Shown here one piece after another: positions 1 through 61,493 of a stretch of 64,000 nucleotides of DNA (within the stretch, counting starts at the first letter, position 1; the number at the start of each line of letters is the position of its first letter). The notes beneath the pieces were generated by a model. It made no database searches and had not been told where the DNA came from. It saw only the letters and a list, made by a program, of their open reading frames with translations. Source of the DNA: Branchiostoma floridae (Eukaryota; Chordata; Leptocardii; Amphioxiformes; Branchiostomatidae); assembly GCF_000003815.2 (NCBI RefSeq), contig NC_049980.1, positions 16,887,613-16,951,612 on the forward strand, in the 5' to 3' direction. Made by a program: the position numbers and the translations under genes.

Positions 1-36115
<36,115 letters not shown>

Positions 36116-39745: not shown

Positions 39746-41308
39746 ACGTGTATCGTTATCAGCTGTCTTAATAAGGGGTAGTCCTGGCAATTCCACCAAT
39801 CAGGGGACAGCAAGCTGTCGGTGTGTATCTCATCCAGTACGTGTCAAGAATGGGCGCCATGAGGGGAGCGCTTATGCGGAACTCCGACGTGGAACCATAT
39901 GGAACCGTACACGTGGGATTTCAGAATGTTTCTGGTCATTATCCACGTTTAGAAACTGACAAAGACATACAAGACAGCTGTTTTCAAAAAATTACCAATC
40001 AAACTTGCGGCATTGCTTTGTACCACCAGGTGTGTGTGCTTCTGCCCACAGTTACAGAAAACGCTTCACCAACATACTTGTATAGTCTGATGATACTACC
40101 CTGTAAGACGACGCTCATACGACCCACTTCACATTCATGTTTCGTGTACTATGTTTCATGTATATGTAGTAAGTGTACACCTTACTGTGAAGTTTCTACC
40201 TGTTAAGGCTATATCCTGTGCAACATTTTCTACAATATTTTCAAATTAAGTAACAATTGAGCAACCCTACTTTTATTTTACACAATGATTTGACTTTTTT
40301 ACATATCAAGAGTTCTATTATTAGCTAATTTTCTACGCAATTACTGTAAAACAAAGCGAAAGCCGATTGCACTGCAGTCACATCCGCGATGTAGCTTGGT
40401 CGTGCCCAGCTGACGTCCAATTGGTCTCCTAATCTTGGGTAACAGCTGACACAAGGATCATGTCAAATATCAATATTCTAAAGTCACCGAAATTTCTTTT
40501 CACAAAGTACAGGTAAGTGGCGGATAGCTATAACGCTCAGTAGATTTTATGTTGTGTTACGGTACAGAATATAAGTATAGTTATTGAAGGAGACAAACAT
40601 CTTAGATTTATCTTCGATGACCTGAAATTTTCCTGGTAAACTTCGTTTGGTTTCATATTTCAGAGCTCAGACACGGCTGTCCCGATTGGTCCTTCTTCTT
40701 TCCTGGGGGCATTTCTGAACACTTTTGTTGCCGCCTGGTTAACATGTGTTATAAGTCGCGAGCACCAGGTTAACCGCTTTCTGGACGATACAAGCGGCTA
40801 ACAACGATTGGTTTAGACACAGGGTTACTTGTCATCGAACAAACTATTCAACCAATAAGAGATAACCACGCAAGGAGAAACCTGCGTTTGTTTCTTTCAA
40901 CTGATTTCATATCAAAAGCTAAAAGATGAAATTTCCGTAGAGTGAAAAGTTAACACTTGCTACACTTCTCGCTTGCCATGTTGAAGCTACCGTGGTCAAA
41001 TAATCATAAAGGATGGTTTTATTACGCACGTTTGCATTAAATATTCAATTAGATCTTTTACAATGATGCTGGCCGGGGTGCTATGCCGTTATTTGTTTCA
41101 TTCTTTCGAAGCTAATATCTATTAATCATCATTGAAGGCCAACGCATGGACTCTATCGCTCTGTACGTGTATGTGTTAACCTCCTTGTGTATACCAACCC
41201 TGGACTTTGCTCTTCACGTGACCGACAACGGTTATTTGCTATAGTGAATACGCAGCCATACGTCTGCCTCTGGATACTTAGATCATTACTACCAATGGTA
41301 CATCTGCT
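39746..41308. other. Intergenic region, no gene supported
   Basis: Holds the promoter side of cyclophilin 1 and the upstream region of the NHL gene. An open frame at 39823-40206 starts with GTG, lacks splice context and resembles nothing I know. Confidence 0.5.
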
Positions 41309-42142
41309 ATGGAGCCTTCTACTAAGCTATGTGCTAGTCCTATTTCCACAATAGGTACGACCGAAACTGGACAGGTACAGTTCAAAAACCCCGTAGCAAT
41401 TGCAGTTGGAAAGGAGGCAACCCTTTTCGTCGTTGACCAGGGAACTAAAACTGTCCATATGTTCAGCGCAGAGGGTAAAGCTGTGAGTACATTCAGCATA
41501 CCGACAGCTTGGGCACGGGGTGTGGCGGTCAGCCCGACCAGCGGGAATATTCTCATTGTTGAGAACGAGAACCAGTCCGTGATGACGTTTACACCGTCTG
41601 GAGAACTCGTTCACTCGTTCCACAGTGACCACTTCTCTTCATGCTACGGAATCGCAGAGGCAAACGACGGGAGAATTTTAGCTGTCGACTACGCAGAACA
41701 TTGCGTCGCCATGTTTGAATCAGACGGAACGTTCATACGAAATATCGGCAAACGTGGCGATGGGGAAGGCGAATTTTACCGACCGTTTTTCATCGCCATG
41801 ACCAAGTCTGATGGGTTTGTCGTGTCTGACTCGTATAACCACAGACTTCAAACTTTCAACAAAGATGGCCATTTTGAAAGAGCTTTTGGCCAGAGGGGCG
41901 AGACAAATGCAGATTTTGAGCTCCCCTTAGGGGTAGGGGTTGGGGGACGAGGGGAAATCGTTGTGGCAGACAGGGATAACCATAGGTTACAGGTGGTTGA
42001 TACTAACGGAAGTCACGTGACCACGATTGCTAATGATGACGGCAGATTGGATAGTCCCGCCAACATCGCCGTGACGTATGATGGGCATGTTTACGTCATC
42101 AACGGCAAGGATAAGTCGGTTGATAAGTTCAAATACAACTAA
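41309..42142 (+). CDS. Intronless NHL-repeat beta-propeller protein
   Basis: 277 residues from an ATG at 41309 to TAA in one exon. Six NHL-type blades can be counted: 21-56 (FKNPVAIAV, LFVVDQ), 64-104 (ARGVAVSPTSGNILIVEN), 110-145 (YGIAEANDGRILAVDYAEH), 150-190 (YRPFFIAMTKSDGFVVSDSY, NHRLQTF), 197-235 (FELPLGVGVG, VVADRDNHRLQVV) and 245-277 (LDSPANIAV, VYVING). NHL propellers bind protein or RNA. In TRIM2/3/71-type proteins this domain follows RING, B-box and coiled coil, none of which is present here. There is no signal peptide. The lack of introns amid intron-rich neighbours suggests a retrocopy or a derived, domain-only gene. The exact partner and function are unknown. Confidence 0.85.
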   Translation: MEPSTKLCASPISTIGTTETGQVQFKNPVAIAVGKEATLFVVDQGTKTVHMFSAEGKAVSTFSIPTAWARGVAVSPTSGNILIVENENQSVMTFTPSGELVHSFHSDHFSSCYGIAEANDGRILAVDYAEHCVAMFESDGTFIRNIGKRGDGEGEFYRPFFIAMTKSDGFVVSDSYNHRLQTFNKDGHFERAFGQRGETNADFELPLGVGVGGRGEIVVADRDNHRLQVVDTNGSHVTTIANDDGRLDSPANIAVTYDGHVYVINGKDKSVDKFKYN

Positions 42143-49452: not shown

Positions 49453-52400
49453 ATGCCTGCGATGTTGGACGCCCCGCTGAAGCCCTACCAGCACCATAAC
49501 GCCAGGAGGGTGGAGCCACGGCCAATAGAACAGCTGCAGAAGTCAAGAATATCCACCAGACCGCAACAGAACCTTCAAGACCAGGACATGATGTTTGAAC
49601 GGAACAAATCAGTCTATTCCAGAAGCCAACATGTCATTCCGACCGCTAACGGCATGGTGGAACGAAACAAGACTTATGCAAGGTACCAGAGAGAAAATCC
49701 TGTCCAGGACATGGCAGAACGTGCCAGTCAGGCTTCTTCGGTCTGCTCCGATAAGGAACTCTTCGCTTCTAGACGGAGCAGTGTGGTTAGCTCAAGGAGG
49801 TCCTCAGTTTCCGAGGAGTATTGTGGACAGGTAGGTGGCTTTATCTTAATTTTTGGAAGTTAATCTGTTTCTTCCTTTCGATTGTTTCCCTATAGGTATT
49901 TTTGGTGCTTTATATTAGGTGCTTTATGATACGTTGGTTAAACTACTAGTATGCTTACTACATTGAAAGTAGGCACCAGAACTTTCTCTCTTTCAGAAAT
50001 CAAATTAAGCCCTTCACATTTGTTTCACAGGTTGAGGAAGATAGGGAACCAACCCCAAATCAAAACACATTCCCTAACGGTACACTGGTAACAGAAGAGG
50101 ACGGTGCTGGGGGTGTTGAAGACACTGACAGCCCGTCAGACGACAAGTAAGTTTCATCTGCCTGTACTTGTGCCTATACAATATCTTCTTTGTCGCGTCA
50201 GCTACAATGGTAAAATGAAGGCACACTCACTCACAGGTCTAGTTGCACGTGGTGCGAGGACCTGACTTGGTCCACTTAGCTTCACCAGGAAAGGTGGAAT
50301 GATACGTTTCAAAATACCAGTAACGATTATACTCAGTTTATGCATACAAACCCACTGATTTCGAAAGCATACTGAAATTGACTTATCATAGAAGAGAGAA
50401 GACTTTAGCAAGACAGGATGTTACTTATTCGCGAAACTCTTGTTCCGTTCACAGGTGGATGTTGCTTCGCATGTTCGGAGTCCTGTATGGACTGTTGATG
50501 TTTGCTGTTGGCACCATGTTGCCCGCAGCCCAGCTCTTCTCGTCTGACATCTCCCAGGCAACCGTGGAGGCGTTCTACCTGTACCTGTTCCTGGTGGGCG
50601 CGCTGTGGATGGGCGCGGTGCATGCCTGCAGCATCATGGCTGCTCGCGGCGGACGAACTGTTGACAAGCCGGACTCAACCGTCAACACTTACCTAACAGG
50701 TGAGGCACGACTGAAGTATCCTTGAAGGAAATCTCAAGATTTCTGGACATTTTCTTTAAGCAAGAAAGCTTTGACAAATTTGAACGGTTGATCTATATGT
50801 TTTGACGCACATGTACTCGTTGTTTCAGGAGCAGCGTCCTTTTTCGGTTTCTGCACCATTCTAATTTCTGCGTTCAAGTTCGGCACGTATGTCTACTCCG
50901 ACGCCAACGACGACTCAGGCGGAGCTTGCGAAAACATCCTTCTGGCCGTGACACCTGTGTGTGAGGCGGTCTTCACTCTGCTCCTGGTGCACCACCTCTG
51001 GCACCACGCCTGGAGCAACAGGACACGTCGCGGCAAGCTTCACGTGCTGACAAGGTGGGCGTCGTTTTGTGGCTGATATTTCACTGCTAAGAAAATGTTC
51101 AAATTGCAGTTTCTGTGTCAAGTATATATGGTGTAGGCGTCTAATACTGTGGTGGTTCATTTTGCGTATTGAATAACGGTGTATCACAAATGAAATCATA
51201 ATGACGAAGGTCATTTTCGTGTCCTACAGTTTCGGGGTCATGCATACCGTTGCTACGTGCGGCTGCGCCTGGATACGCACCGTGATCATCGAGGCCTGGA
51301 TAGATGTAAAGCGTCTGACCCCCGACGACACGCCCAGCCTAGCACCCTCTACAGACGTGCCTGCGGCTTTCGGAGTCTCAAACTGCTCGTTCAACGGTTC
51401 TGGACTGCCGGTTGAATCTGTCACGACATTTGCATTGAACACCAGCAGCGCCACCCCAGCAGCAGTGGTGCGACGGTCTGTTGAAGACGAAGTCGAAGGT
51501 AAGAAAGAGAAAGAATATACTTAAAGTGTCGGGTGTCAAGTAATGGCATTGTCTTGAACATCTTGTACTTAAACAAGTCACATTGTGACTAATTATGATG
51601 CTTACTCATCTGTCCCCCTCAGTATTCAACATCACCGAAACAACAAATGCGGCCAATATGTCAGAGGCGTCTATGGACTGCCTGAGAGAAAGGGCGTTCT
51701 TGACCACGCTGGACCCCCTTCTGTATCCTAGCAACGTGGAGTTCTACATCCTCAGTGTTGGCCTTATTCTAATCCTTTGGAGCAAGATGGCGGAGGCGAA
51801 CGAGGTAGTGAGCCCTCCTCGACGATGGTCCATGGAGAAGTCTAACGGAGGAACCGTTCTGAGCTTCTTGCTGTTCGTCGTCACCATCTGTGTCATCGTG
51901 TTATACCACAACGACCCGAGCCCTGGCAGCGCTGCCTTCGTCGTCTACTACGCTCACAGAATCGTTCTTCTGCTGACAATGACGATAGCTTGTGTGTTCA
52001 CCTGCGTTCGGCGACGTCGTGCCGTGGAGAAAGGTGGGTGGACCCTTGACCCTGAGCGGGATAATCGACTGGGCATGATCATCATCCTACTGTGCGTGAC
52101 GACGATCTACTTCAGGGATCTACTCACCGCCGTGGCCGCCATCTTTCTGAACCAACCCGAGCTGATACCAGGAATAGTCCTGATGGAGGCACTTTTGGAT
52201 GTCGTCTTGGTAACGACGCAGTCTGCTGTCGTGCTGGACACGTTAAGCAGGATCCCGCCCACCGCTGAGTTCTGCCCGGATCTGACCCGACAAGCCGTCG
52301 TCTTCCTGGTTCTCTGCAACGCCAGCCTGTTTGTCATCTGCACTAACGACGCAAATGACCACGGGACAGACTTGGTTCAGATTGAGTACTTTGGTGTGAT

Positions 52401-52497
52401 CATGTGGTCCGTCCTTCGCAACATAGTACAGCCCTTTGTGATATTTCACCGATTCTATTGTTCTGTGTCCTTCATGGAAGTCTGGCTACGAGGCTAA
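49453..52497 (+). CDS. Otopetrin-like proton channel
   Basis: Twelve-helix membrane protein of the otopetrin (OTOP) family, proton-selective channels. Exons: 49453-49830, 50031-50146, 50455-50699, 50829-51054, 51230-51498, 51623-52497. They give 702 residues and TAA. An acceptor (CTCTCTTTACAG, ending at 49388) marks a non-coding leader on the first exon. The long hydrophilic N-terminus (1-165) is Ser/Arg-rich. Helices lie at about 171-192, 206-228, 249-268, 283-305, 323-345, 446-464 and six more to the C-terminus. The motif FGVMHTVATCGCAW (323 on) and LYPSNVEFYILSVGLILILW match helix 5 and helix 7-region signatures of the family. The C-terminal NIVQPFVIFHRFYCSVSF resembles the last helix. The 346-445 loop carries several N-glycosylation sequons (NCS, NGS, NTS, NIT, NMS). 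Which OTOP paralogue it is cannot be told here. Confidence 0.88.
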
Positions 52498-55080: not shown

Positions 55081-56023
55081 CTACACGGTCTCGTAGATCT
55101 CCACGTCCCAGTCCTGTCCCTCCTTCTTCTTGTGCTGAACCACAACCTTCCCGTCAGCCACGTCCATGGCCAGCTCGTCAGGGTCAGACAGGATGTACCC
55201 GTCTCCGCGGATCTACAGCAGGAAGTATTGTGTTGTCATAAAGGTGCATAGATCAGGCGACCAGTTGAGCGACCAAAATAGATTTGGCTGATCATTGGTT
55301 TTATGATTTAAGAACAACACGCGATGTAAAATGATGCTGTGAAAGACACCAAAGACATAAAACTTGATTTCGGTCTTTGTCTATGAAATTCGTTGAGCGA
55401 TCCGTCAAATTTCGGTCGCTCAGTGGTCGAAGTGAAAAAGGGGTGTCAGACAGAGGGGTTACCGTGGATTATAATTACTACGAATAAGCTTATTAAGATA
55501 ATTCTAAAGCTCTGCTCTTCTGACGGCCTGTGTGATCTCAATGGAAGGAAGGCACAGTAATGAGCATTTTGTATGGGGGATACTTACGATCCACTTTTGG
55601 TCTTGCTTGCCCGTTTTCTTGGCCACCTTCACAGCGCCTCCTGCCGTAGCCTCTGGGAGATGCAGTACTTGTCCGTTCTGTCTGTTTACCAGGAGACCAT
55701 CGGTGTAGGACCACAGTTGACTGTCACTGGAATTAAACAGAACATTGGAACGTATGTACCTCTTGGTTAATCTTCTAATTCAACATGCTTTGATTGTCCG
55801 AAACATTTTGTCCCCACGCGCACCCTTCAATTTTCTATTCAACCTGGACAATAAAAAACTGAAATGTCTCATGATCATTTTCAATGAAGTGTGATAGATA
55901 TATAAAGTGTAAGAACCTGCGAGGAGATTTCTTCCCTGCCAGGACTGCCTGGGGTCCATCAGGGCCGTTCTGCATCTCCAGGACGTCTTCTGAGTCACGG
56001 AATGACAGGAAAAACGTGCGGCC
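55081..56023 (-). other. Beta-trefoil tail-coding exons of the filament gene
   Basis: Exons 8-10 encode residues 495-619. Repeat one runs GRTFFLSFRDSED..SQLW, repeat two SYTDGLLVNRQNG..QKW, repeat three IIRGDGYILSDPD..QDW. Each is 36-41 residues with a hydrophobic-Asp/Gly pattern and a terminal QxW, the signature of the ricin B-type beta-trefoil. Cysteines and the classic sugar-binding Asp/Asn pattern are not clearly kept, so carbohydrate binding is uncertain. Confidence 0.75.
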
Positions 56024-59000
56024 CTGAAACAAAAAATACACTTTCTTGTCCGCCTCTGAGAGGAAACAGTGAAAAATAAATCAAAACACGAAAACAAATT
56101 ACAGTGACAACTAGAAATGATAAAACTTACCTTGAGCAGCCCTGCGATGTTCTCACTCTGCACCGTCATGCGGATCACCCCAGTCTCCTCGATCTTCAGA
56201 TCCTCCTTACTGTCCTCCAGATCGTCCACGATCATGGATTGCCTGCTCCGGGAGTAACTCATGCGGGACGTATCCATTCTGGGGGGAACGAACATTCCTC
56301 TCATTCAACTGTGGGATATGTGTGCGATAGTATGTCCTTGATAATTCGCTGAACTATCAACCAATATCTTGTGTCTGTGAGTAAATTAGCACATTCAGAC
56401 AATCTACGCGAGCCCAGACTAAACAGATAAAGCAGCAAGCATCAATAGCCCTACCGTGTTTCCTCGCCCTCCAGTAGTTTCCTGTACGCCTGAATCTCCA
56501 CATCCAGGGCCAGCTTGACGTTCATCAGCTCGTTGTAGTCCTGGACCTGTTTCGCCATCTCGTTCTTGATCTGCTTCAGCTCGTCCTCCAGACTGCGCAC
56601 CATGGACTGCAGCTGGTCAACATCGCCGGTGGACCTGCTCTCCAACTCACGGGCACTCTTCTCCAGCAGGGCGTTCTGACAAAAAGGGGAACAAAGAATT
56701 ACTAAAAGAAACTACTAGATATACGCACAATTGTGATGATAGGTAAAACGACTAGTTTGATGGACATGGATACGTAAATATTTGGTTATGAAATAAAAGT
56801 CATGGTTTTGGGACAATATACTTGAAGACTTGTCTTGAAAAAAATGTAGATATCATAAAGTGTGCGATATATAGACAGGCTATGTATTAGATGAGATGCA
56901 TCCCCTGTCCAAAGATTCCAAAGTCCATATCATATACATGGGTTTGTAGTCTAATTGCCTCACCTTGCTCTTGGCCGTGTCCACCTCGCTGGTGAGCACG
57001 TGAACTTGACGTTTGTTCTCCAGAGCCTCCTGCCTGGCCAGGCGCAGCGCGTCCTCCGCCCTGTCACACTTCTCCGTGATGTCACGCAGCTGGGGAGGGA
57101 CAGATCACATAGGAGTATTTCATTAAAGCTAAATTCGTGCTTATCCAATGCATCCAATTACTATTCATACCTAAACACCGAGGCGAAGTTATGTACAATA
57201 TCCAAAAGATAGAGTTTCAAAGGACTCACGACGAAAGACACTGACATCACTGTCTACTTTCAAAAACGCTTATTTAATGATCAGTTGCTGCCATAATTGG
57301 ATGACTTCCAAGAAGAATCTCTCCTCTGCACTGCGGTTTCATGAAGTAGCTAGACTACCATAGGTGAGAATAGCAAATCGGACACGAGTGGAGCCGCAGA
57401 TATCTTACCTTGGACTGGTACCACTGCTCAGACTCGTCCTTAGTCTTCTTAGCCAGGGCTTCGTACTGCTTCTTCATGTTGGCCATCGCCATGGCCATTT
57501 CGTCATAGATGCTGCGGCCGCTGTCGATCTGCACCACCGCCTTCTGCTCCTCCAGCTGCTTCTGGAGCGCTTCGATCTCCTGTAGTTTCAGGGAGAGGGA
57601 TAGGTGGCGTTGTGTGATGGAACGATCAGTTGTGCATACTTTTGTAGATGTTGATCGTCCAATGTTGCTATTTCATCAATTATTTTGCCAGTTAGTATTA
57701 CGCAATCTAACCCTTTTCTAACATGTCAGTCTTAACGCGTACCTGTTGGTGGATTTCCTTGGAGAAGTCCAGGTCTTGCAGGGCTGTTTTTAACCTCGTC
57801 TCCATGTCTTGCCTAGCCAGATCCACCTTATTCAGTTCCTGTAAGGAGATTTTGACCAAAAATGTTTCTTTTGTACGCATTCAAAAGATAAACAATCATT
57901 TGCATCGGATATATGGGAATATTTCAAGGTAAGACCAATAAAGAGATGAGCTTTATCGGGATGTACAGAAATATTGCGTAAAAAGTTTACCATTGTTAAC
58001 CACTGATTACACATTCAAGCACATTCATTCTGTATACAACTTCGAATTCCGCCGATTTTTTGTAAACAAATGCTCACCTTCCTGGAGCTGTTTAACTCAG
58101 TCTCAAGGTCCTGGCGAACTCGCTTCTCCTCCCCCAACCTGGAAGAGCGGGTATGTTTCAGTCTTGAAATCAAGTGCATATACGAACAACGCTATTGTCA
58201 TTAAACACCATAGTCGTTTGTATTTTGTGAAAAATCATGTTCGCCTGTATTTTATGACATCGACATCAATACGGATGCACATTGTTGCCAGTTTGAGAGG
58301 CATTTTCCAAGGCGCTAGCAAATTTCTTTAAACTTAGCGATTAGTAAAACAAGCAACACACTTTCCCCTGTCATTTCTTCAACAACATTACCGTATTCAA
58401 GCCACATCTAAATACACGTAAATGGCCTATTGAAGTAGGTTTAAGCTCGAGAAAGAAATCATACTTTCCATACATAACGTTATGTTCGACTTAATTACAG
58501 TTTTGTATTTCCCTACGGTTAGTACAATATGGATGCTGTTCTTATGTTTTCCGTGACATGATTCATGAATTTTTTGTCGGCCCGTCCAAACGAAATGCAT
58601 GGATCGGATATTTGTGTGCTGCCAATTCATTGGCCAACACGTACAACCAATTTCTTAATGAAACACCTGGTAATTGCAGTGGTGAACACAAGTGAAATTA
58701 CTCCCATGGCGGCACTCACTCTCAAAGTGACGGGTTTATGGACACGGACCACACGAACAGGTGGAATAGCTCGAGGAAACATCGCTGAAATTACAGCCGC
58801 CTACAGGGTCGTTATCCGCCCATATTCGCGATAATTTTACACAATTTGTAGACGTAAATGTATGACACGATTTGCGAATGGGGGCAATGACCTGACATAC
58901 TCTTTAGGTTTGCGGAGAAAAAAACATGGAAAGTCCAATTGATGACTTTTAGGTCAATTGGACTTAAAAGTTTGATTAAACTTAGCGGGGAACCAAACAA

Positions 59001-61493
59001 TTGCACCCATCGACTTATAGACTTCACCGAAAGTTTGTAATGTTCAAAGAAATCCTTTTGCCAAGCGTCTTTACAATCAAAAAGATGTAAAATAAGACTA
59101 ATAAGTTTTTCGAACGAAAATTGTAAAGTCCCTCCGTTTTGCTTGAAATGTGCATATTTTTTTAAGTTTCCAAATAACGAACGAACCCGGTTCTTCTGGC
59201 TGCATTTGTATCCACTTTCAACATTTCCTGCTACATATGAGCTTAACTAAAATCAAACAAACCCAAGTGTCTCTCATAGTCTTCATCATTCAGTTTGTAA
59301 GTGTTCAAGCATCAGTGAGCATCAGTGAAAGCACCAATCACTTCTTAAGTGAAGGCATGATTGGAGAAAAGTGTGACGCGACCCGGACACCTTTACGTGA
59401 TAAACTGCACTGCGTGCCTCGTGAATTGTGTCAGGGTGACCCCTAGCCGTTGTTAACGCCCCAGCTTCGGGCGAAAGCTGTGTAACTTCCCCATCTAATG
59501 ACAGACTAGGCACAACTGTTACCTTTGTGCACCAGTACTTAAGAACTAATTTGATGTACTTTGGTGTCAACAACCCGCATGTAATGATAGTACATGTACT
59601 TTTTAACGGGAAAATGAACATTGGGCAGACAATTTTACGTTTTGTTGTTTGACTGTAAGACTTATGCAATATACTGACTTTCTAATCTGATCACTTGTTT
59701 GAGTAATCTTGTTTCATGTCTTTCACAGAATTCGAAGATAGGCAATTTGGCGAGTGAATGATGTCCTAGCCTTTCTTGTCGAGGGTTCAAGAGCGAAGAG
59801 AGATATACTTTAGTAAATCGGATGAAATACAACTCAGGAATACACGGTGAATGAACTCCACTAAGGGTGATGATTTGGTCTTCCTATAAGGATGATTTGC
59901 AGAGTTCAGTCTCGAGCTCTGTTAACAAAACACCAAACAACCGCCGCCTGTGGCTGGGCTTGGAGACGTGTTGACTCTTTTCCCAGACTTCAAAGCACAA
60001 AGATCGCATTTGCATCGGAAAGGAACAAATATCGTCGCCAGAGTCCATCTGTCTGTTGACTTTGTCAGGTCAGGGAATAGGCCATGGCCGTCAGGCGTGA
60101 TTGAAAGAGACTAAAACAAAATCTATAGAGGTCTTATTTTCGTGGAGTCCGGCAAGAAAGGCATATCCGATTTCAAACGGGAGGACGGTGGTAATGTAGG
60201 ACAACATCGCCGACATTTCGACATACAGACAATCTATCTTAAGTCCTCCACATTAGCATGCACAAGTATACGAATGCTTGCATTGTAAAAAATTATTAGT
60301 ATGTTTCAGATGTGGTTATACCGATACATTCTCCTCGCTAAAACATATCAATCAAACGCGTAAGTGGTCGTCTATTGTGTTTGTGCATAATATCGATCCA
60401 TCTCGCAGAGCGAACAATACAAAGATGGAGCTGTGAATGAGGTAGAAAGGACACCCGTCTCTGGCCTTTATGTCGTGATCCTCAAAATCAATTATACATT
60501 CCTCAAACAATATGTGTAGCATCGCATTACACAGCACGTACAATATGGTGGGCTATGAACACAGCGAGCAATTTGTACAGCATTGGGCACATTTATGAAT
60601 GTCTTCATTGTGCTACCGTCGTAGAAAAAAGACAATTAATAAAAGCAAGTCTAAATTCACTTCCTCTAAGGTATCCCCGACTTTAGCATAATACATGTAC
60701 AGCTACTATACACAATAAACAATTCTACCTACATACATGTACTTGAATACACTACAAAAAGAATATCAATGCATGTGCAATATTCGTTACAACATCTTTA
60801 TGTTAAGACTATCGGAGAATGTCATGTTACTTACTGGTGCCTTGTATGGTCCAGCTCCTCCCCCAGGGTGTCCCTGTCCACCTCCACGATGGCCTTCTCG
60901 TTGGAGAGGGAGTCGATGGCGCGTCGGAGCTCGCGGATCTCCTGTTCAAACATCTCTTTCATCTGGTGAAAGTTCTGGTGGCCAGCCTGGAGAGCCCGCA
61001 CCTCTATCTCCAGCTCCTCGTTACGGGTCTCCAGGAAGCGCACCTTGTCGATGTAGCCGGCCAGGCGCTGGTTCAAGGTCTGCATCTCCTCCTTCTCCTG
61101 GACGCGCAAGGCGTGGTTCTCGGCGATTTGTAAGGCGTTGGAGGTGGCTATAGCCCCGCTGATGGTGGTGGTGCTGGGGCGGGAGGCGGCGATGGTCGTG
61201 CGGCGCATGGTCGTGACGGGAGAAGGCCGGCTGCCTGAGAAGGACGTCCGGTTGTTGGTGCCTCCCCCGCCCAGTCGGTACGTCGTCGTCAGCGTCTTGG
61301 TGGCGGAGTTGTAGTTGGACATCGCCGGAGAAGTGCTGAAACGCGCCGCGTAGATCGAGTCGGTCATGCTTCTGGGCGATCCTGACAGTCTCGTCTTGGT
61401 CGGAGTCGAGGTTGCAGAGGGGCGGGGTCCTGGTCTCTGCACTGGAACGGTGTGAGAGAGAGTGGTGGTACTCTGGGTGCCGCTACGGCTCAT
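55081..61493 (-). CDS. Cytoplasmic intermediate filament protein with beta-trefoil (ricin-B-like) tail
   Basis: Ten exons: 61493-60835, 58138-58078, 57838-57743, 57579-57409, 57089-56964, 56675-56455, 56278-56131, 56023-55917, 55726-55588, 55212-55081. They give 619 residues and TAG. The head (1-130) is Ser/Thr/Arg-rich. The rod (about 131-445) begins LNQRLAGYIDKVRFLE and ends VKLALDVEIQAYRKLLEGEE, the two filament consensus ends. It has the short chordate coil 1b, not the lamin or protostome form. Exon lengths 61, 96, 171, 126, 221 mirror vertebrate type III genes (61, 96, 162, 126, 221). No lamin-tail domain follows. Instead residues 495-615 form three repeats, each ending in QxW: SDSQLW, KQDQKW, EGQDW, with DGLLVNRQNGQVLHLPE and GDGYILSDPDELAMDV as typical trefoil strands. 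The exon 8 donor (GTTCTT) is weak, but phase and the repeat pattern support it. Role: cytoskeletal polymer; tail ligand unknown. Confidence 0.92.
58139..60834. other. Intron 1 of the filament gene, no second gene seen
   Basis: About 2.7 kb of mixed-composition DNA between exons 1 and 2. It holds scattered TACATGTA words and no recognisable exon, RNA gene or complete element. Confidence 0.55.

Follow-up and report, generated by a model that had tools for sequence, protein, structure and literature searches.

Lancelet Intermediate Filament Genes in Which a Rod Is Followed by a Predicted Ricin-Type Beta-Trefoil Tail

A stretch of 64,000 nucleotides of Branchiostoma floridae (hereafter the window, C2:16887613-16951612 of its genome) contains a gene in which a complete intermediate filament rod is followed, in a single reading frame, by a tail that matches the Ricin_B_lectin family, and four further filament genes of the same genome carry such a tail. 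As judged from the sequence and its homologies, the product would be a cytoplasmic filament protein in which the trefoil serves as a docking or cross-linking knob and not as a sugar-binding lectin; we give this reading a probability of about 0.6. To our knowledge, the folded filament tail domain so far known is the Ig-like lamin tail.

The Filament Gene and Its Rod

The gene has ten exons on the minus strand, from 61493 to 55081, and the translation of the joined exons runs in one frame: their 1860 bases contain no internal stop and give 619 residues followed by a stop codon. The introns are GT-AG in nine cases out of nine. The donor of intron 8 (GTTCTTACA) is a poor splice site; the four sister genes described below have the join made by this intron at the same position and in the same phase. 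That four more exons follow the rod in phase had been the original prediction, and the ends found here agree with the junctions that it had proposed (56455/56278, 55917/55726, and 55588/55212). When a codon score trained on exons 1-6 was applied to exons 7-10 and to intron stretches, no intron stretch scored as high as these exons (0/473, 0/522, 0/481, and 0/489); per codon, the score is low in exons 8 and 9 (0.187 and 0.154, where exons 1-6 range from 0.42 to 0.98). The exons and the sister genes are given in Table 1; the GVIRM motif of exon 7 corresponds to GFIRM in two of the sister genes.

Table 1. Exons of the filament gene (positions in the window) and the four sister genes elsewhere in the genome
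Feature	Location	Strand	Description	Evidence
Exon 1	60835..61493	-	head domain and rod start (coil 1A and some of coil 1B)	frame, splice sites; Pfam Filament match beginning at residue 132
Exon 2	58078..58138	-	61 bases, rod	frame, splice sites, Pfam
Exon 3	57743..57838	-	96 bases, rod	frame, splice sites, Pfam
Exon 4	57409..57579	-	171 bases, rod	frame, splice sites, Pfam
Exon 5	56964..57089	-	126 bases, rod	frame, splice sites, Pfam
Exon 6	56455..56675	-	221 bases, rod end with YRKLLEGEETR	frame, Pfam, structure match
Exon 7	56131..56278	-	linker with GVIRM motif	frame, splice sites, sister comparison
Exon 8	55917..56023	-	trefoil repeat alpha, first part	frame, Pfam, tail alignment
Exon 9	55588..55726	-	QLW of repeat alpha, then repeat beta with QKW	Ricin_B_lectin 22.8 bits, exon alone
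Exon 10	55081..55212	-	trefoil repeat gamma (QDW) and stop	frame, Pfam, tail alignment
L019	C2		rod, long run of coiled-coil exons, then trefoil	
L020	C2		diverged rod, then trefoil	
L017/L028 (C19 forward gene)	C19	forward	rod exon in L017; trefoil in L028 and start of L006	
L006	C19	reverse	rod, glycine-rich exons, then trefoil	read by eye

Residues 132-445 match the Pfam Filament family (PF00038) over the whole of its length (positions 1-313 of 313, E 4.8e-85, 286.4 bits), and the conserved motifs of the start and the end of the rod, LNQRLAGYIDKVRFLE and YRKLLEGEETR, are both present in the translation. The best match of the rod among solved structures is vimentin (E 3.4e-67; 317 residues versus 312). 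Since coil 1B has no long insert of the lamin type in the vimentin alignment, the rod belongs to the short chordate type, and the complete chordate-type rod of the original prediction stands. The lengths of exons 2-6 are 61, 96, 171, 126, and 221 bases; those of vimentin, which we take to be 61, 96, 162, 126, and 221, coincide with them in exons 2, 3, 5, and 6 (61, 96, 126, and 221). Type II keratin genes share most of the vimentin exon lengths, so these lengths do not fix the type of filament. Vimentin and the vertebrate cytoplasmic filament proteins have the same short rod as the window gene, but the vimentin tail is short and has no known folded domain, whereas that of the window gene is a predicted trefoil made from three exons. 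Because lancelets are without type III and type IV filament proteins according to a passage of an editorial (PMC10590288), the window gene is not called type III here.

The Predicted Trefoil Tail

Taken alone, the tail matches Ricin_B_lectin (PF00652) with an E of 4.6e-8 and 33.7 bits, above the curated cut-off of 29, and its translation contains three QxW motifs: QLW, QKW, and QDW. A second Pfam match, to RicinB_lectin_2, lies below the cut-off. The reversed tail gives no Pfam match at E up to 10, and the tail itself has no match in NCBIfam at E up to 1. Among the tail exons tried singly, exon 9 matches the family (Table 1), and exons 7, 8, and 10 do not. As a single sequence, the tail matches the B chains of mistletoe lectin (best E 3.2e-7), and a profile built from three tails retrieves 59 matches among solved structures at an E of 1 or less, the strongest at 1.8e-12, the names of which include ricin-type lectins, a designed trefoil, and the trefoil parts of enzymes and toxins.

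Self-similarity of the repeats was considered as the main proof of a trefoil and was dropped, the similarity being too weak (shuffle p of 0.024 for alpha-beta, 0.72 for alpha-gamma, and 0.051 for beta-gamma). Consequently, the case rests on the profiles and on the homologous tails of the four sister genes; a beta-trefoil fold of the tail is implied by this homology. A structural model of exon 9, which holds one repeat and was built with five homologous exons, has four strands, the number expected for each repeat of a trefoil; with a mean pLDDT of 63, which is low confidence, it is compatible with this fold and no more. Both the three repeats and the ricin-B-like nature of the tail had been read from the sequence in the original prediction, and both are upheld by the family match, by the solved-structure profile, and by the homologous genes.

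Lamins and those protostome filament proteins that have a lamin tail resemble the predicted product of the window gene in that the rod is followed by a folded all-beta module. That module is, however, Ig-like, whereas the window gene has neither a lamin tail, nor a CaaX end, nor the long insert in coil 1B. A lamin tail, which the original prediction had named among the findings that would speak against it, is absent from the Pfam matches at E up to 1, and the translation ends in EIYETV rather than in the CaaX sequence usual in lamins. According to a passage of a 2024 review, just one crystal structure exists for the end regions of filament proteins, and it comes from the lamin tail (PMC11121635). 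Odd fusions do occur in the filament family, since a lamin of the salmon louse with an N-terminal PDZ domain is mentioned in one paper (PMC4448529, in part).

Sister Genes in the Same Genome

A search for the same fusion in amphioxus, which had been proposed along with the original prediction, was run on the lancelet's own genome (513,431,437 bases in 431 contigs). The exon-6 segment has 31 matches there, the window gene included, and 3.7 to 8.8 kb of downstream sequence was examined for 21 of the 30 other places. A trefoil lies downstream of the rod in four of these 21, and the fusion is not a single case. In the other 17, there is no trefoil at E 1 within the 3.7 to 8.8 kb, an absence that is not proof because one of the sister trefoils lies 16.5 kb from its rod exon. 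Beyond the five genes' trefoil exons, a more permissive trefoil scan (with one incomplete row) gave nothing better than matches of E above 4; the exception is a match in a second reading frame over the exons of the window gene itself (E 0.011).

Rod and trefoil share a strand in each sister gene and are separated by 1.5 to 16.5 kb. The Ricin_B_lectin cut-off of 29 is passed by each of the five tails (33.7, 29.1, 40.2, 33.5, and 43.8 bits), the pairwise identity between tails is 21 to 54%, and in the four genes read to their end the protein terminates with the trefoil. The sisters differ in what else they contain. Exon 6 of L020 is only 34% identical to the query and, with 35.0 bits, falls short of the Filament cut-off of 40. 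The C19 forward gene has a long coiled-coil stretch in its tail, as does L019; its rod and its trefoil are the 16.5 kb apart and have sequence gaps between them, and the putative link between the two is drawn from their common strand and from the tail exons, which by eye run parallel to those of L019.

The genome searches were run exon by exon, and diverged tails were missed in this way. Indeed, at E 0.001 the window tail as a query finds its own four exons only; the tails of L019 and of the C19 forward gene each find the other and none of the remaining three, and that of L020 finds itself alone. A search of the genome with the Ricin_B family gave nine matches, none of which is a filament tail.

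A sixth trefoil filament gene may be present on C9. An open frame there (L030, C9:14226200-14227400) has a start like that of a filament rod and continues as coiled coil, and some 15.7 kb downstream of it, on its strand, are two exons that carry the trefoil repeats (L029 396-578 and 810-1073, with profile E of 4e-13 and 0.0026); the link between this rod and this trefoil is putative. Elsewhere, in C2:27.68-27.85 Mb (loci L007-L010, L021, and L022), filament exon matches are dense on both strands, and no trefoil was found downstream of the exon-6 places examined in this cluster, nine other places of which are outside that count.

Two introns connect the five trefoils with one another. An intron in phase 2 interrupts the codon three residues before the first QxW in all five genes, and another, in phase 0, lies one residue after the W of the second QxW, again in five of the five. 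Other introns are less constant: the one between exons 7 and 8 of the window gene is absent from L019, the C19 forward gene, and L006, and L006 has one additional intron in the third repeat, the QxW of which is lost. The shared pair favours common descent of the trefoil tails from one origin and goes against a mis-joining or a splicing artefact in the window.

Proposed Role of the Trefoil and Alternative Explanations

The gene product would be a short cytoplasmic intermediate filament protein of the chordate type, with a folded R-type beta-trefoil carried on a linker as its tail. Filament rods pair and assemble with the tails outward. The chains of the present protein would pair via the rod and then assemble into filaments, and many copies of the trefoil would be displayed along the filament surface, where each could act in the cytosol as a knob for docking or cross-linking a protein partner such as another filament, a junction, or a membrane-associated protein. 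Its role would resemble that of the Ig-like tail of lamins. Moreover, the trefoil would be a reusable tail module in part of the filament family and, because the same module follows quite different tail stretches, a plug-in docking part is suggested; some chordate filaments probably carry such a folded docking knob. A parallel may be seen in fascin, which is also a cytosolic trefoil protein that acts on the cytoskeleton, although it has four trefoils and no rod, and binds actin; fascin was not among the matches listed in the searches with the tail. Filament genes of this kind also hint that a lectin fold has been converted for use in the cytosol. The genes with a trefoil tail offer a compact module for asking how tails recruit partners, and the tail itself is a marker for tracing the loss or the swap of the folded tail ends of chordate filaments.

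The main rivals of this docking account are the control of assembly and a true lectin function (the odds that we attach to the various explanations overlap and do not sum to one). In the first, the trefoil would mainly control how filaments pack laterally, are spaced, or are joined, by acting on the rods or on other trefoils. The position of the trefoil at the end of the protein in the genes whose end was read would suit such a function, as would the interaction of the Ig-like tail motifs of lamins with each other in dimers, which is described in a passage of PMC11121635. Against it, the 17 other exon-6 places have no trefoil in the downstream sequence given above, so the trefoil seems not to be generally needed for assembly, and we consider this explanation unlikely.

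In the second, the trefoil would function as a lectin whose ligand could be, for instance, an intracellular O-linked sugar or a glycan encountered at damaged membranes. The homology to R-type lectins speaks for this. A classical sugar site in these lectins requires two residues within a single repeat, the LDV Asp and the Asn that precedes QxW (NQxW). An LDV-like motif with one such Asp survives in every one of the five tails, and the NQxW Asn is kept in one repeat of L019 and in one of L006. The two residues occur together in none of the three repeats of the window gene and in none of the 15 repeats of the five genes (alignment by eye and motif print). As a control, nine Ricin_B fragments were taken from elsewhere in the genome, on contigs without a Filament match; both residues are present in five of them by eye, where LD before any residue and one QMF in place of QxW were accepted, and in two of the nine by the strict pattern. 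Cysteine is likewise present in all nine fragments, whereas four of the five filament tails, that of the window included, have none (L020 has three); since the fragments are partial and repeats of the same gene are not independent, this comparison is a contrast and not a test. The contrast in residues and in cysteines points to a cytosolic domain without a classical sugar site. Some trefoil lectins may use other sugar sites. Filament proteins are cytosolic, and such glycans are rare in the cytosol. The window trefoil has the three QxW repeats and the profile matches of R-type lectins and other trefoil carbohydrate modules, but it is placed on a filament rod and has no cysteine and no complete classical site. 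The original prediction of a ligand-binding trefoil on a filament is supported for the fusion and not for the lectin-like ligand binding, and a lectin function appears to us distinctly unlikely.

The docking account must also be compared with an explanation in which the trefoil is a passenger of exon shuffling and has little function. Such passengers might be expected in lancelets, which, according to a passage of PMC4284660, acquire more than 10 new domain pairs per million years, with losses just as fast. Yet open frames have been kept in five genes that have diverged to the tail identities given above. Furthermore, in the two closest tails the agreement at codon positions 1, 2, and 3 is 0.59, 0.72, and 0.46 (145 codons), and the better conservation of positions 1 and 2 would reflect a constraint at the level of the protein. 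A mere passenger is, on these grounds, quite improbable. Finally, that exons 7-10 come from another transcript, or that the join is an artefact, is highly improbable: the weak donor of intron 8 leaves some room for it, but one open frame runs over ten exons with canonical sites, and the order of rod and trefoil on one strand, with the same places and phases of introns, recurs in four other genes.

Origin and Inheritance of the Tail

A tree was made of the exon-6 rod segment from 19 selected rows and 74 columns. The five trefoil genes are not grouped in it (5 changes, with 500 of 500 shuffles as low). With half of its inner branches (8 of 16) open and with long branches for L020 and L018, this tree cannot choose between one gain followed by losses and several gains. 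Viral contigs and prokaryote genome contigs scanned with the tail contained no relative, at a sensitivity that extends to close relatives only, and at this sensitivity there is no sign of a recent viral or prokaryote donor.

One tentative explanation, to which we give less than even odds, is that chordates have had, in addition to the Ig-like lamin tail, another ancient type of folded filament tail, the trefoil. A single gain close to the root of the chordate cytoplasmic filaments, or of the lancelet branch, would have been followed by inheritance in several subfamilies and by loss in many other ones, among them those of vertebrates, whose tails became unstructured. The subfamilies that inherited it would then be, equally tentatively, one that is glycine-rich, two with long coiled coils, the vimentin-like one of the window, and one that is diverged. 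That chordate cytoplasmic filament proteins share the rod and have type-specific additions is stated in a passage of PMC4448529, which also states that in the deuterostome ancestor filament proteins were already reduced to the rod; to the extent of that passage, a very old trefoil tail is disfavoured unless it was regained. Given the rapid gain of domain pairs in lancelets noted above (PMC4284660, in the passage referred to), one more fusion is less surprising; the unusual part is the spread of the fusion over five filament genes.

The open-access literature (titles and the openings of abstracts) contains, among the matches listed, no description of a fusion of rod and trefoil; the specialist literature on Branchiostoma filaments lies largely outside it, and domain databases may already show the fusion.

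Additional Observations

Two tRNA-Leu (CAG) genes are predicted in L020, at 6630-6713 and 8021-8104, on the opposite strand and in what are presumed to be introns of the filament gene. In the window, the ETV at the C-terminus of the filament protein (55081-55092, minus strand) might fit a PDZ-binding end of the acidic type; the C-termini of the three sister tails whose end was read differ from it. Two open frames are found on the plus strand of the window: one, at 41282-42139, has NHL repeats (80.9 bits), and the other, at 51589-52494, matches Otopetrin, a proton channel family, with 104.3 bits and is arranged tail to tail with the filament gene.
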